This document shows, piece after piece, positions 24,981-46,900 of a DNA stretch of 64,000 nt. The notes below the pieces were generated by a model that was given only the letters and a program-made list of their open reading frames with translations, had not been told where the DNA came from and did not search any database. Position 1 is the first letter of the stretch. Every line of letters begins with the position of its first letter. The stretch is from Thermoanaerobaculia bacterium (GTDB lineage: Bacteria > Acidobacteriota > Thermoanaerobaculia > Thermoanaerobaculales > Sulfomarinibacteraceae). The stretch lies in assembly GCA_027061805.1 (NCBI GenBank), contig JAMOWA010000057.1:1-64000 (forward strand), in the 5' to 3' direction. Both the position numbers and the translations under genes were made by a program.

Positions 24981-25010
24981 TTGCGTCCCCACCGCGGGGA
25001 GGGGTATCCT
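24981..25010 (+). promoter_or_regulatory. Probable promoter of the broken secreted-protein gene
   Basis: TTGCGT (24981-24986), an 18-base spacer and TATCCT (25005-25010). A run of nine G residues (25045-25053) sits just before the ATG at 25059 and overlaps its ribosome-binding site. Confidence 0.5.
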
Positions 25011-25058
25011 CGGAGAGAACGATCATGGGAATCCGAACAACGGAGGGGGGGGGAATCG

Positions 25059-25603
25059 ATGCTCCGCAGAACTGTACTGATGGTGGGCCTGCTGGTCCTC
25101 GTGGCGGGCCCGGCGGCCGCGCAGACACTCCAACCCATGACGGCAGGGGTCATCCCGGTGGCGGTCCACCAGGGGGGTGCCGACGGCAGCTTCTGGACCA
25201 CGGACCTCCACGCGACCCAGAAGGGCGGCAGCGCCCCGGCCACGTTGAACCTCACGGTGCTGATGCCGGCCGGACCGGACATCACCGCATCCTCCAGGCC
25301 CTGGACACGGTGCTGGCCAACCTCGGCAACCGACCCTACATGGTCTCCCGTGGCTACATCCGCTACGTCCATCCCATGCTCGGCGAGATCCACACCACGC
25401 CCTTCAGCTCCCGCTCCACCTACGCCCACGTGGTGGAGTACGGCCCCGAAGGACCTGTGCGGATCGAGAGCATGTTCCCGCTCGGGGAGTCCGGCACCAT
25501 CCTGATGGACGAGACGGGGGCCCCGATCTTCGATCCGAACTTCTTCAGCATGGCACCGCTGTTCGACACCTTCACCCACCGGACCTTCCCCCTCTTCGAC
25601 TGA
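25059..25603 (+). pseudogene. Secreted protein gene with a frameshift
   Basis: The start encodes a clear signal peptide (MLRRTVLMVGLLVLVAGPAA, cleavage after AAAQ) followed by VIPVAVHQGGADGSFWTTDL, which resembles the start of the intact secreted protein at 48.6-49.7 kb (VPAVAH, then GSVWRSDV). Near 25285-25290 the meaningful frame shifts: the continuation ILQALDTVLANLGNRPYMVS is read in another frame down to the stop at 25603. Restoring one base would join the two halves into an uninterrupted protein of about 180 residues. It could be true decay or a sequencing error. The family's function is unknown. Confidence 0.75.
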
Positions 25604-25677: not shown

Positions 25678-27069
25678 TCAGGCGCCCGCAGCGGCCATGG
25701 GGAAGGCCGGTGCCACGGGTCCCAGCGGGCACGATGCCTGCGGCCCCAGCGGACACGCACTCTCAGGGCCCAGCGGGCACGACGCCTGTGGACCCAGCGG
25801 ACACGCGCTCTCGGGCCCCAGCGGACACGACGCCTGCGGCCCCAACGGACACGCGCTCTCCGGCCCCAGCGGGCACGACGCCTGCGGCCCCAGCGGACAC
25901 GCGCTCTCGGGCCCCAGCGGGCACGACGCCTGCGGCCCCAGCGGGCACGCGCTCTCCGGTCCCAGCGGGCACGACGCCCGCGGACCCAGCGGGCACGCGC
26001 TCTCCGGCCCCAGCGGGCAACTGGCGGACGGGATGTTCATTCCCTTCGGAAAACGGGGGCTCCCCGCCACCTCCGCAGCCACACGGCAGGGCATCCCGGA
26101 GCCGGTCCACCGGTTCCAGCGATCGGTCTCCACGGACAGGACCCCATCGGGACGGAGCTCACCCACGTGGTTTCCCGGAAGCTCGAGTCCCACCGCGCAC
26201 TTGTGGAGCGCCCCGTCGGGACCGATCATGATGGAGTTGGACCGCCCCGCGTGGCACTGCAGCCCTCCGGGGCGGTTCTCCCGCGACCAGACCACCGTGG
26301 CCAGACCCGCACGGGAGAGGGCCTCCATGAGGCGGATACCGAAGAGCCTCGCCTCCCGGGCGTTGCACTGCGGGCCGGATCCGCCGGGGTAGGAGATGGG
26401 ACGACCGTAGAACTCGAACCTGGGGTCACCGGCGAACTGTCCCGCCAGCTCCGGGACCCACTGGAGGATCGCCTCCATGTTGTGGCAGTCGTAGCCGAGG
26501 CGGACCACCACGCGGAAGTCCGCCGTGCTGCGTTGCATCATGGTCAGTGCCGACCAGATCTTCCGGAAGCTCCCCTCGCCCCCGGCCGTGACACGGCGCC
26601 GGTCGTGCTCGCTCTCGGGGCCATCCACGGTGATCTGGTAGTCGCGGCAGCCCCATTCCGTCAGCTTGCGGAACCGCTCCTGCGTGAGCAGGGTCCCGTT
26701 GGTGGTCATGGACATGGTCAGGCGGGTCCCGGTGGACTCCGCCAGCTCCACAGCCCGCGTGGCGATGGACTCGATCACGTGCCACGCCGCCAGGGGCTCC
26801 CCGCCGTACCAGTCCAGGTGGAGCCGTTCCAGCTCCCGCTCGCCGACCAGCCGCTCGAGGAGCCGCTGCACTCCCTTCTGGACCTCGGAGGTCATCCTCC
26901 TCGGGGTGTGTCCCTGGTAGCAGTAGACGCACCGCAGGTTGCAGGCCTCGGTGGGCAGGATGACAACGTTGGCCACGCCCGACCAGGGGTCCGCGGACCC
27001 CGTGCCACCGCTCCCCAGCATGATGTTCCCTCGTGATTCGACCCGGATCTGATGAATGCTCTCACGCAT
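25678..27069 (-). CDS. Radical SAM/SPASM-type enzyme with a C-terminal CPLGP repeat tail
   Basis: 463 residues. The radical SAM core is complete: CNLRCVYC (Cys43, Cys47, Cys50) for the [4Fe-4S] cluster that binds SAM, YGGEPL (89-94), TTNGTLL and ITVDGPESEHDRRR. A SPASM-like half motif follows (Cys272, Gly286, Cys291, spaced CX13GX4C). The expected second half of SPASM, CX2CX5CX3C, is missing. Instead residues 351-451 are 13 copies of an eight-residue unit, alternating ESACPLGP and QASCPLGP (one RAS variant), then a short tail. Relatives modify peptides or sulfatases. The repeat could hold extra Fe-S ligands or be a fused peptide substrate; both are speculation. No separate precursor gene was seen nearby. 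Confidence 0.85.
   Translation of the reverse strand: MRESIHQIRVESRGNIMLGSGGTGSADPWSGVANVVILPTEACNLRCVYCYQGHTPRRMTSEVQKGVQRLLERLVGERELERLHLDWYGGEPLAAWHVIESIATRAVELAESTGTRLTMSMTTNGTLLTQERFRKLTEWGCRDYQITVDGPESEHDRRRVTAGGEGSFRKIWSALTMMQRSTADFRVVVRLGYDCHNMEAILQWVPELAGQFAGDPRFEFYGRPISYPGGSGPQCNAREARLFGIRLMEALSRAGLATVVWSRENRPGGLQCHAGRSNSIMIGPDGALHKCAVGLELPGNHVGELRPDGVLSVETDRWNRWTGSGMPCRVAAEVAGSPRFPKGMNIPSASCPLGPESACPLGPRASCPLGPESACPLGPQASCPLGPESACPLGPQASCPLGPESACPLGPQASCPLGPESACPLGPQASCPLGPESACPLGPQASCPLGPVAPAFPMAAAGA
25717..26019 (-). repeat. 24-bp tandem repeat array (13 units) inside the radical SAM gene
   Basis: A 24-base period, or 48 bases for the alternating ES/QA pair, encodes 13 CPLGP units. 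Copies differ mainly at silent or near-silent positions, and the two unit types alternate strictly, suggesting growth by duplication of a 48-base block with selection to keep the peptide. One arginine variant is at the N-terminal third unit. Confidence 0.95.
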
Positions 27070-27193
27070 GGCATACCCTCCCTGGGAGACCGCCTGGCCG
27101 GTTTCGTCGCGGCGCGGTCCCCGATTTGTCGCTCTGCCTCGCGCTGCAGCACCGAGTCCTTCTTGGATCAGAACGCGATTCCCGAAAATGATC

Positions 27194-27209
27194 AGTGACA
27201 GATATCACA
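27194..27209. promoter_or_regulatory. CRP/FNR-family-like operator
   Basis: AGTGA, six bases, TCACA: 9 of 10 matches to the CRP consensus TGTGA-N6-TCACA. It lies about 125 bases upstream of the radical SAM start (27069), in a locally A+T-richer region. No CRP-family gene is in the window, so the regulator is unknown. Confidence 0.45.
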
Positions 27210-27212
27210 GGA

Positions 27213-27233
27213 ATTGTCCCGGTTTCAGACAAT
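27213..27233. promoter_or_regulatory. Inverted repeat ATTGTC-N9-GACAAT
   Basis: A perfect 6-base inverted repeat with a 9-base spacer, four bases beyond the CRP-like site and upstream of the radical SAM gene. Its size suits an operator for a dimeric regulator; which one is unknown. Confidence 0.35.
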
Positions 27234-27281
27234 CCCATCGGTGCAGATTCACTCCTCCCATGTCCACCATCATCGTGGGCC

Positions 27282-27578
27282 TCACCGGTCCATGTTCGCC
27301 ACAACCACGCCGGTGACGACGAGCGCTCCACATCCCGGCGGCCATAGAGGTCCGGGGCTCACCCGGCAGGAGGACTCCGACAGCGACCCCCACGAGGGGA
27401 ATCCCGTAGACCAGGCTGCTGGTGGCCGTGACGCCAAGGACACGGATGGCCTGGTTCCACCAGAGGTAGGCCACGGCGGAGCACAGCACCCCCAGGCAGG
27501 CGATGGCCAGCAGCGGCCCCGGCCCGGGCAGCCGCGCCGGCACGAATGCCAGCTCCGCCAGCGCCGGGGGCACGAACG
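27282..27578 (-). pseudogene. C-terminal remnant of an EamA/DMT-family transporter
   Basis: Read on the minus strand, the region matches the last third of an EamA permease: CLGVLCSAVAYLWWNQAIRV, then SSLVYGIPLVGVAVGVLLPG. Near 27330 the frame shifts and the end continues in another frame as ALVVTGVVVANMDR before a stop at 27282. No N-terminal part or start codon exists. An intact EamA gene lies at 33 kb, but this remnant is not an obvious recent copy of it. Confidence 0.75.
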
Positions 27579-27777
27579 CGGTCGCGGACAGGGACACGTT
27601 CGGGAACGGGATATACGGACAGGGACGGCGTAGGAACTGTGGAATGTATGGCGCCGGGAGGCCCCCGGCCTCGTCCGGGGTCCTCGCCGCACGTTGCGCC
27701 GGAGGCCCCCAGGCGCTACCATGCCCGCGCGCGGCGGGGCCGCGCGGATCCGAGCCGAACACAACAGGAGGTGAACC

Positions 27778-45126: not shown

Positions 45127-45146
45127 GGACGCCCTCCCCGCCCGCC

Positions 45147-45470
45147 ACGGTCAGGGTCACGGGCACGGGCAGGGTCACGGTCCCGTCCGTGCCCATGACC
45201 ATGTTCCTGTTCCTGTTCTCGTCCATGATCGTGCCCCTGTCCCCGTTCTCGTCCCCGTCCACGACCATGACCCTGTCCCCGTCCTCGTCCCTGTCCATGA
45301 CCATGTCCCTGTCCATGCTCTACGGCGCCCTCCGGTCCTCCACCGGAACAGGGTCAGGTCATGGCCAGGGTCAGGGTCGGGGTCAGGGTCACGGCCAGGA
45401 TCACGGGCACGGACAGTGTCGGGGGCACGGTCACGATCACGGTCAGGAGCGCTCGGACATGGTCACCACC
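45147..45470. repeat. Hexanucleotide-periodic array R1 with a central hairpin
   Basis: About 320 bases of six-base rhythm. The left half is pyrimidine-rich on this strand (units such as GTCCCC, GTCCAT) and the right half purine-rich (GGGTCA, GGGTCG), so the halves are roughly complementary. They meet at TCCGGT-CCTCC-ACCGGA (45331-45347), a perfect 6-bp stem with a 5-base loop. No stop codons fall in several frames, which creates long spurious reading frames. It sits between aroDE and the first four-helix-bundle gene. Confidence 0.85.
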
Positions 45471-45612
45471 GGGTCGTTCGTAGGGGTACGTAGCCTCCGG
45501 GCGTCCCGGCGTCAAGGGCGGGCCTGCGGTCGCGGCGCAGACGCCGCGACCCTTGACTCCGGGACGCCCGGAGGCTGTTGGGGGTTGCATGAACGACCCG
45601 GAGGTGACCATG
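45458..45612. repeat. Nested palindrome, copy 1, containing the start of the first four-helix-bundle gene
   Basis: Outer arms of 24 bases (45458-45481 and 45589-45612) match in 22 positions. Inner arms of 27 bases (45492-45518 and 45550-45576) match in 26. An innermost 8-bp hairpin (TCGCGGCG, CAGA, CGCCGCGA; 45530-45549) closes the top. The right outer arm contains GGAGGTGACCATG, the ribosome-binding site and start codon of the next gene, so folded mRNA would hide them. Confidence 0.85.
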
Positions 45613-45960
45613 ACCCTGATGCGCTCCCAGACCGTCGTCCTCGACCTGGCCCTCGAGGCCGCGTCCATCGCCCTGAAGCTGGCCCAGCGGGTTCCGGTGA
45701 CGCTCAGACCCGTGGCCGACCAGCTGGTCCGCTCGGCTTCGTCCGTCCCCTCGAACCTGGCCGAGGGGCTGGGACGTCCGGGCCGGGCCGGAGCCAACCA
45801 CTGGCGCATCGCCTACGGCTCCGCCCGGGAGGCCGATGTCCAGCTCAGGCTGCTCGCCGGAGCGGGCGCCATCGATGCCCGGCAGGCCGCCATGGCACTC
45901 GACCTCCTCGACCAGGTCCGCGCCATCGCCTGGCGGCACCTCCACCCGCCAACCCGGTGA
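45610..45960 (+). CDS. Four-helix-bundle protein (S23/IVS family), copy 1
   Basis: 116 residues predicted to form four amphipathic helices. Family features: VVLDLALEAASIALKL, then QLVRSASSVPSNLAEGLGRP, the hallmark loop of 23S-rRNA-intervening-sequence proteins, and ANHWRIAYGSAREADVQLRL. Relatives include S23 proteins and the Avd subunit of diversity-generating retroelements, but no reverse transcriptase or rRNA is here. The ATG at 45610 is chosen for the GGAGGTGACC directly before it, conserved in both copies; an ATG at 45589 is possible. The function is unknown. Confidence 0.85.
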   Translation: MTLMRSQTVVLDLALEAASIALKLAQRVPVTLRPVADQLVRSASSVPSNLAEGLGRPGRAGANHWRIAYGSAREADVQLRLLAGAGAIDARQAAMALDLLDQVRAIAWRHLHPPTR

Positions 45961-45970
45961 GGGAGCGATG

Positions 45971-46257
45971 CCGTCACGGTCACGGACATGGCCACGGACA
46001 CGGGCACGGTCAGGGCCAGGGTCAAGGTCAGGGTCACGGTCCCGTCCGTGCCCATGACCATGTTCCTGTTCTCGTCCATGATCGTGCCCCTGTCCCCGTC
46101 CTCGTCCCTGTCCATGACCATGTCCCTGTCCATGCTCTACGGCGCCCTCCGGTCCTCCACCGGAACAGGGTCAGGTCACGGCCAGGGTCGGGGTCACGAA
46201 CACGGACACTGTCAGGGTCGGGGTCGGGGTCGGGAGCGCACGGACATGGTCACCACC
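45971..46257. repeat. Hexanucleotide-periodic array R2 with a central hairpin
   Basis: Second copy of the array, a little shorter than R1, with the same pyrimidine-rich then purine-rich halves and the same central TCCGGT-CCTCC-ACCGGA hairpin (46148-46164). The copies differ by gain and loss of whole six-base units, as expected of slippage. It separates the two four-helix-bundle genes. Confidence 0.85.
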
Positions 46258-46391
46258 GGGTCGTTCGTAGGGGTACGTAGCCTCCGGGCGTCCCGGCGTC
46301 AAGGGCGGGCCTGCGGTCGCTTCGCGACCCTGTGACTCCGGGACGCCCGGAGGCTTCTTCAAGAGCCATGAACGACCCGGAGGTGACCATG
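46245..46391. repeat. Nested palindrome, copy 2, containing the start of the second four-helix-bundle gene
   Basis: Outer arms 46245-46268 and 46368-46391 and inner left arm 46279-46305 are the same as in copy 1. The inner right arm (46328-46355) has one mismatch and one extra base. The innermost hairpin has a different sequence (GGTCGC, TTC, GCGACC; 46315-46329) yet still pairs perfectly. The right outer arm again ends in the gene's own GGAGGTGACCATG. Confidence 0.85.
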
Positions 46392-46739
46392 ACCCACACG
46401 CGCTCCCAGACCGTCGTCCTCGACCTGGCCCTCGAGGCCGCGTCCATCGCCCTGAAGCTGACCCAGCGGGTTCCGGTGACGCTCAGACCCGTGGCCGACC
46501 AGCTGGTCCGCTCGGCCTCCTCCGTCCCCTCGAACCTGGCCGAGGGGCTGGGACGTCCGGGCCGGGCCGGAGCCAACCACTGGCGCATCGCCTACGGCTC
46601 CGCCAGGGAGGCCGACGTCCAGCTCAGGCTCCTTGCCGGAGCGGGCGCCATCGATACCCGCCAGGCCGCCACCGCCCTCGACCTCCTCGACCAGGTCCGC
46701 GCCATCGCCTGGCGGCACCTCCACCCACCCACCCGGTGA
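46389..46739 (+). CDS. Four-helix-bundle protein (S23/IVS family), copy 2
   Basis: 116 residues differing from copy 1 at only five positions (two near the N-terminus and three Ala/Met to Thr changes), so the duplication is recent or homogenised. The NLAEGLGRP loop and all helices are kept and the frame is intact, which suggests the protein is still under selection. The ATG at 46389 has the same ribosome-binding site within the palindrome arm. It is followed by a third partial array. Confidence 0.85.
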   Translation: MTHTRSQTVVLDLALEAASIALKLTQRVPVTLRPVADQLVRSASSVPSNLAEGLGRPGRAGANHWRIAYGSAREADVQLRLLAGAGAIDTRQAATALDLLDQVRAIAWRHLHPPTR

Positions 46740-46750
46740 GGAAGCGATGC

Positions 46751-46900
46751 CGTCACGGACACGGACATGGTCAGGGCCAGGGTCAAGGTCAGGGTCAGGG
46801 CCACGGTCCCGTCCGTGCCCATGACCATGTTCCTGTTCCTGTTCTCGTCCATGATCGTGCCCCTGTCCCCGTCCACGACCATGACCCTGTCCCCCTGTCC
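46751..46900. repeat. Hexanucleotide-periodic array R3, partial
   Basis: Third array, beginning with the same GTCACGGACACGGACATGG phrase as R2 but stopping after the pyrimidine-rich half; the central hairpin and purine-rich half are missing. It ends about 70 bases before the trpS stop. The order is therefore R-gene-R-gene-R(partial). Confidence 0.8.

Follow-up and report, generated by a model that had tools for sequence, protein, structure and literature searches.

The 64,000-nucleotide stretch of DNA analysed here (‘the window’) belongs to a 3.1 Mb draft genome of 68 contigs and carries, on its minus strand, an intact open reading frame of 463 amino acids (25678–27069), recognised through ORF analysis, domain searches and its orthologues as a radical SAM / half-SPASM protein with a C-terminal cysteine repeat tail. 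A Shine-Dalgarno-like AGGGAGG stands ahead of the ATG start (27070–27090, minus strand), with no precursor-like reading frame further upstream.

Core domain and repeat tail

Following the chain from its N-terminus, we see that the radical SAM core and half-SPASM domain together occupy about residues 34–325 (26095–26970, minus strand), as delineated by Pfam, AlphaFold2 and fold comparison; the Radical_SAM profile PF04055 scores 62.7 bits against a cut-off of 29.5. The motif CNLRCVYC (residues 43–50, with C43, C47 and C50; 26920–26943, minus strand) is invariant in our alignments, and would be expected to hold the catalytic [4Fe-4S] cluster and to bind SAM. Besides this motif and the tail, the only cysteines invariant among the window protein and its two tailed orthologues (‘the trio’) are C141, C272, C291 and C328, of which just the last three lie in the SPASM region: the C272-x18-C291 pair (26197–26256, minus strand), also invariant in all of the sibling enzymes considered below, and C328, part of a PCR motif (26086–26088, minus strand) and invariant in the trio only. 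The set of about seven cysteines that marks SPASM proteins with two auxiliary clusters, including CxxCxxxxxC...C, is not found; CxxCxxxxxC itself is absent. In our AlphaFold2 model the core is mostly well folded, its closest solved fold being that of CteB (5why/5wgg), with residues 324–463 predicted to be disordered. The best NCBIfam profiles are all RiPP maturases—TIGR04463 (rSAM_vs_C_rich; 138.6 bits, against 525 for membership), CefB (115.4 bits) and PapB (ranthipeptide maturase NF047865; 105.3 bits, against 340)—with matches far below all curated cut-offs.

The tail is built from thirteen units of eight residues, CPLGP(E/Q/R/V)xx, each with a single cysteine (25708–26019, minus strand; TRF and unit analysis; pLDDT about 30). 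Unit starts span residues 351–447, downstream of C272, C291 and C328, and a short C-terminal end, AFPMAAAGA (25681–25707, minus strand), delimited by comparison with the orthologues, follows the last repeat. TRF reports the array at 25721–26019 with a 48-bp period and 6.2 copies, at a score of 493 that is far above chance. A sequence-only reading of this locus had described an intact CxxxCxxC core, half of a SPASM motif and thirteen one-cysteine units, all of which we recover; the ‘strict’ alternation it saw is nearly exact, in that units 1–12 alternate between CPLGPESA and CPLGPQAS (unit 2 having R for Q), with unit 13 departing from the pattern as CPLGPVAP.

Within the minus-strand frame, all 30 codon differences among the ESA-type units of the window are synonymous, as are 31 of the 36 among the Q/R-type units; in the much longer tail of one orthologue (G007, see below) synonymous differences outnumber non-synonymous by 1293 to 361, with third codon positions contributing 78% of unit-to-unit differences. 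Because the units differ mostly in this silent manner, the encoded CPxxP motif is under selection. Overlapping plus-strand reading frames are by-products, the codon pattern arguing against them as real genes, most clearly in G007; on the window copy by itself one further frame, rc1, gives a good score as well, and it is with the G007 tail that the frames are clearly told apart.

Orthologues with tails of the same design

Amongst relatives and the wider class (148 genomes) there are exactly two close orthologues, both from the same family and each from another genus of Acidobacteriota: G004 (JAADFK010000121; 57% identical to the window protein) and G007 (JAJDNH010000211; about 55%). A scan of genome contigs returned the same two tailed orthologues only. 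Both carry tails that share the design of the window tail and differ from it in sequence and length. That of G004 consists of six CP(L/V)(G/S)P units, the first with Leu in place of Cys; that of G007 has at least 31 CPK(A/S/G)P units before the array runs off its contig, a second contig (C78) opening with 17 further units and then a stop codon. The G007 array is interrupted by R(E/G)MDLSAFA spacers, and is thus split into blocks of about 5–9 cysteine units. Almost all units of the three tails retain a CysPro pair, whilst the neighbouring positions vary.

A profile of the tail matched these three genes alone in 145 genomes of the class, and only the window's own gene in a sample of 396 genomes of the phylum, in which G004 and G007 did not appear; neither set contained a stand-alone peptide with the tail motif. 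A search of plasmids found siblings, the tailed enzyme being absent among the matches listed, and the one viral match to a loose DNA pattern of the tail proved to be a simple CATGCCCTGCCC repeat.

The comparison of homologues and tails that the sequence-only reading proposed therefore returned two orthologues that both keep their tails, rather than the tail-less homologues and artefactual array that it had named as grounds for abandoning its view. Since these orthologues come from metagenome assemblies, their copy numbers are provisional, and the array does break the G007 contig; an artefact of assembly or annotation (a collapsed repeat, a wrong frame) is nonetheless a negligible prospect, given that selection acts on one and the same frame and that a downstream acylase gene recurs after the G007 break, exact copy number being uncertain. 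Diverged tails in three separate genera, two of them other than that of the window, rule out an assembly error. Among radical SAM maturases the architecture is real, conserved, selected and apparently undescribed, the earlier statement that no described family has such a tail holding within the profile libraries and genomes searched.

Sibling enzymes, precursors and gene neighbourhoods

The nearest other enzymes are short: those of G052, G409 and G300, of Streptomyces canus (WP_331736410) and Sinorhizobium meliloti (WP_088196708), and several proteins from viral contigs. In our tree the trio forms one clade (support 100/100) on a long branch, grouped with these siblings (90/91). As in the window protein, the siblings combine the same core with a half-SPASM and its C-x18-C pair and have no RRE-like N-terminal region; they differ in ending in a single CP motif and in mostly having a precursor reading frame directly upstream, which the window gene lacks. 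This terminal CP, found in all full-length siblings compared, lies about 13–20 residues past a conserved aromatic position, occupied by Trp in the majority, and aligns with the start of the tail, in a region where the alignment is uncertain and where G004 has its Leu.

Given the siblings' single CP at the alignment site of the first tail unit, a cluster ligand may have been the origin of the repeat. The tail would on this account be an expanded metal- or Fe-S-binding region, its multiplied Cys-Pro ligand providing interchangeable ligands for the auxiliary cluster or serving to store clusters or relay electrons, with the substrate encoded elsewhere; the sequence-only reading had offered this as its second option, and it still stands, at odds that we put on the low side. 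C-terminal cysteines do serve as cluster ligands in SPASM enzymes (PMC6231123). Against this, the first G004 unit offers no cysteine, the trio possesses its own invariant C328, so that one cluster needs few ligands from the tail, and a copy number ranging from 6 to more than 31 is odd for a cluster site; the predicted disorder also speaks against it, though a metal-free model would not reveal a site.

Directly upstream of most siblings we find a small reading frame with a cysteine-bearing stretch, usually at its end. A leader resembling (L/V)DDxGRIVI is present in those of G052, G409, Streptomyces canus, Sinorhizobium and one viral contig (L072); those of G300, L066 and L069–L071 are of other kinds, and at L064 and L067 none was seen. 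Candidate precursors read ...LDDHGRIQVEEVDAFLMHGTGDTLCDCPEKS in G409, ...LDDAGRIVLNAPEL...ININCVAGCGSGGGPIM in Streptomyces and ...LDESGKVVISNPEF...LNILCGCNVPCL in Sinorhizobium. No precursor-like reading frame lies upstream of any of the three tailed genes. A precursor profile likewise found no match in the trio genomes; as it also misses the G300 candidate, genome-wide absence is weakly established.

Short half-SPASM maturases with candidate precursors that share such a leader and a C-terminal cysteine core occur across phyla (L062 3173–4457, L063 1511–2713, L039 8100–9382, L041 6445–7745 and L072 2076–2961), those scored lying under every NCBIfam cut-off; such maturases and their putative precursors are perhaps an unnamed RiPP family. 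In G409 and G300, large genes that we assign by eye as TPR-CHAT-like (L039 9421–12852, L040 3547–6882) sit directly upstream of precursor and maturase, and short half-SPASM maturases, several with precursor candidates, are carried by IMG/VR viral-class contigs (L064–L072).

An all-against-all comparison of reading frames around the three tailed genes shows the maturase to be the sole gene common to all: the three loci share no candidate for a precursor acting in trans, nor does any protease, exporter or RRE accompany the gene consistently across the trio. Penicillin acylase was considered as a fixed partner and rejected, adjoining the tailed gene in two of the three genomes only. The window has, convergent with the radical SAM gene, the remains of a gene for a secreted protein of the penicillin-amidase family (24981–25603, plus strand), in which the signal peptide and the few residues after it run out of frame into the final ~100 residues; an intact 1059-aa gene of this family (PF01804) occupies the corresponding place in G007 (L023 574–3753). 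Upstream of the radical SAM gene lies a fragment of an EamA-type permease (27208–27687, minus strand; PF00892, 29 bits), such that the gene is flanked by remnants on both sides. Elsewhere in the window, 45146–46808 holds a cluster of short GC-rich tandem repeats with 6–36 bp periods (GTCCCCGTCC/CAGGGT types).

The lack of a common partner gene nearby, together with a proline-rich tail that is disordered in our model, variable in length and hierarchical in its repeats, is what would be anticipated of a scaffold or docking region—for partner binding, disulfide-linked oligomers or attachment—in an enzyme acting on an unlinked substrate. We regard this as unlikely: a scaffold would not need the CysPro pair to be retained, as it is, almost throughout the three tails, and the relatives are peptide maturases adjoining cysteine-containing peptides.

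The G004 neighbourhood hints at something different again, with the tailed gene about 75 bp upstream of an ABC ATPase gene on the same strand that is followed by ccmB/ccmC/ccmF-like genes (L025 2957–9436). Heme regulatory motifs of the CP-dipeptide kind are known, and a place directly ahead of ccmA/ccmB/ccmC/ccmF-like genes for cytochrome c maturation could suit a heme-binding tail acting as sensor or carrier. Neither the window nor G007 shows ccm genes next to the tailed gene, however, and heme regulatory motifs do not usually come in regular arrays; we consider a heme function very improbable.

The tail as a proposed fused substrate

The best single explanation, to which we assign a probability of roughly one half, is that of a RiPP-type radical SAM maturase fused in cis to its substrate, the latter being a cysteine motif multiplied at the C-terminus. 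With no separate peptide gene beside the trio and a long cysteine repeat tail on the enzyme, the protein may modify its own tail. The built-in substrate suggested by the sequence-only reading is strengthened by the missing adjacent precursor in the trio, the precursors beside most siblings and the variable-length, multi-cassette tail of G007; the substrate role itself is a proposal.

Known maturases supply some precedent for the chemistry. The Aux I cluster of CteB has an open site that is filled by a substrate cysteine, and SkfB has an open cluster site too (PMC6231123); PapB forms Cys-to-Asp and Cys-to-Glu links and accepts Cys-Xn-Asp with n=0–6, its natural substrate containing six such motifs (PMC9413430). 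From these we infer that the tail cysteines, in CPxxPE and CPxxPQ, are the same-chain substrate, and the tolerance of PapB would fit CPxxPE. Like the ranthipeptide and sactipeptide maturases (PapB, CteB, CefB, TIGR04463), the window enzyme has a radical SAM core, C-terminal cysteines for an auxiliary cluster and multiple cysteine sites in its presumed substrate; unlike them, it has no N-terminal RRE region, a half SPASM only and no separate precursor, and carries the repeat tail. Within incomplete literature coverage we found no papers naming TIGR04463.

Self-modification, the bond formed and the processing of the tail may be pictured as follows. The core domain would cleave SAM, as is established for the superfamily, and C272, C291 and C328 would hold one auxiliary Fe-S cluster to receive the tail cysteines, perhaps at an open site of the kind known from CteB and SkfB. 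The flexible CPxxP array could then pass the active site unit by unit, in cis or across a dimer, its cysteines being modified—possibly into Cys-to-Glu thioethers within CPxxPE—before a protease perhaps cuts the tail into cassettes.

Saying that, several observations count against a fused substrate. Glu is present in no more than about half of the units, in which the C-X4-E spacing is just compatible with PapB-type Cys-to-Asp/Glu thioethers; the three loci have no protease, exporter or RRE in common; and the first CP of the tail, in aligning with the terminal CP of the siblings, could be a cluster ligand. A separate substrate encoded elsewhere is possible.

In its layout the protein recalls two unrelated systems in which core peptide and modifying enzyme share a chain, here with the cysteine repeat tail as the putative core. 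The borosin alpha-N-methyltransferases (OphMA) join the two in this way (PMC8429565) but are methyltransferases of unrelated fold that have no such cysteine repeat tail. In the fused burpitides (the lyciumin precursor LbaLycA, AhyBURP) a repetitive core region is fused to its own cyclase, with twelve cores in LbaLycA (PMC11253845); these differ in being plant copper enzymes, again of unrelated fold, with the LbaLycA cores N-terminal to the enzyme domain.

Fused enzyme–substrate chains are thus known for methyltransferases and copper cyclases, whereas for radical SAM maturases we found, within incomplete literature coverage, no report of an enzyme naturally fused to its own precursor. That the present family represents the first self-modifying radical SAM RiPP maturase, bearing a multi-core cysteine-repeat substrate whose copy number and cassettes evolve quickly between genera, is a claim we advance tentatively, at slightly under even odds. 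If the tail is indeed the substrate, one gene would encode the enzyme together with modified units numbering up into the dozens, offering a simple system for iterative radical SAM action and for the handling of substrate cysteines by an auxiliary cluster; it would also bear on how RiPP pathways pass between fused and split forms.
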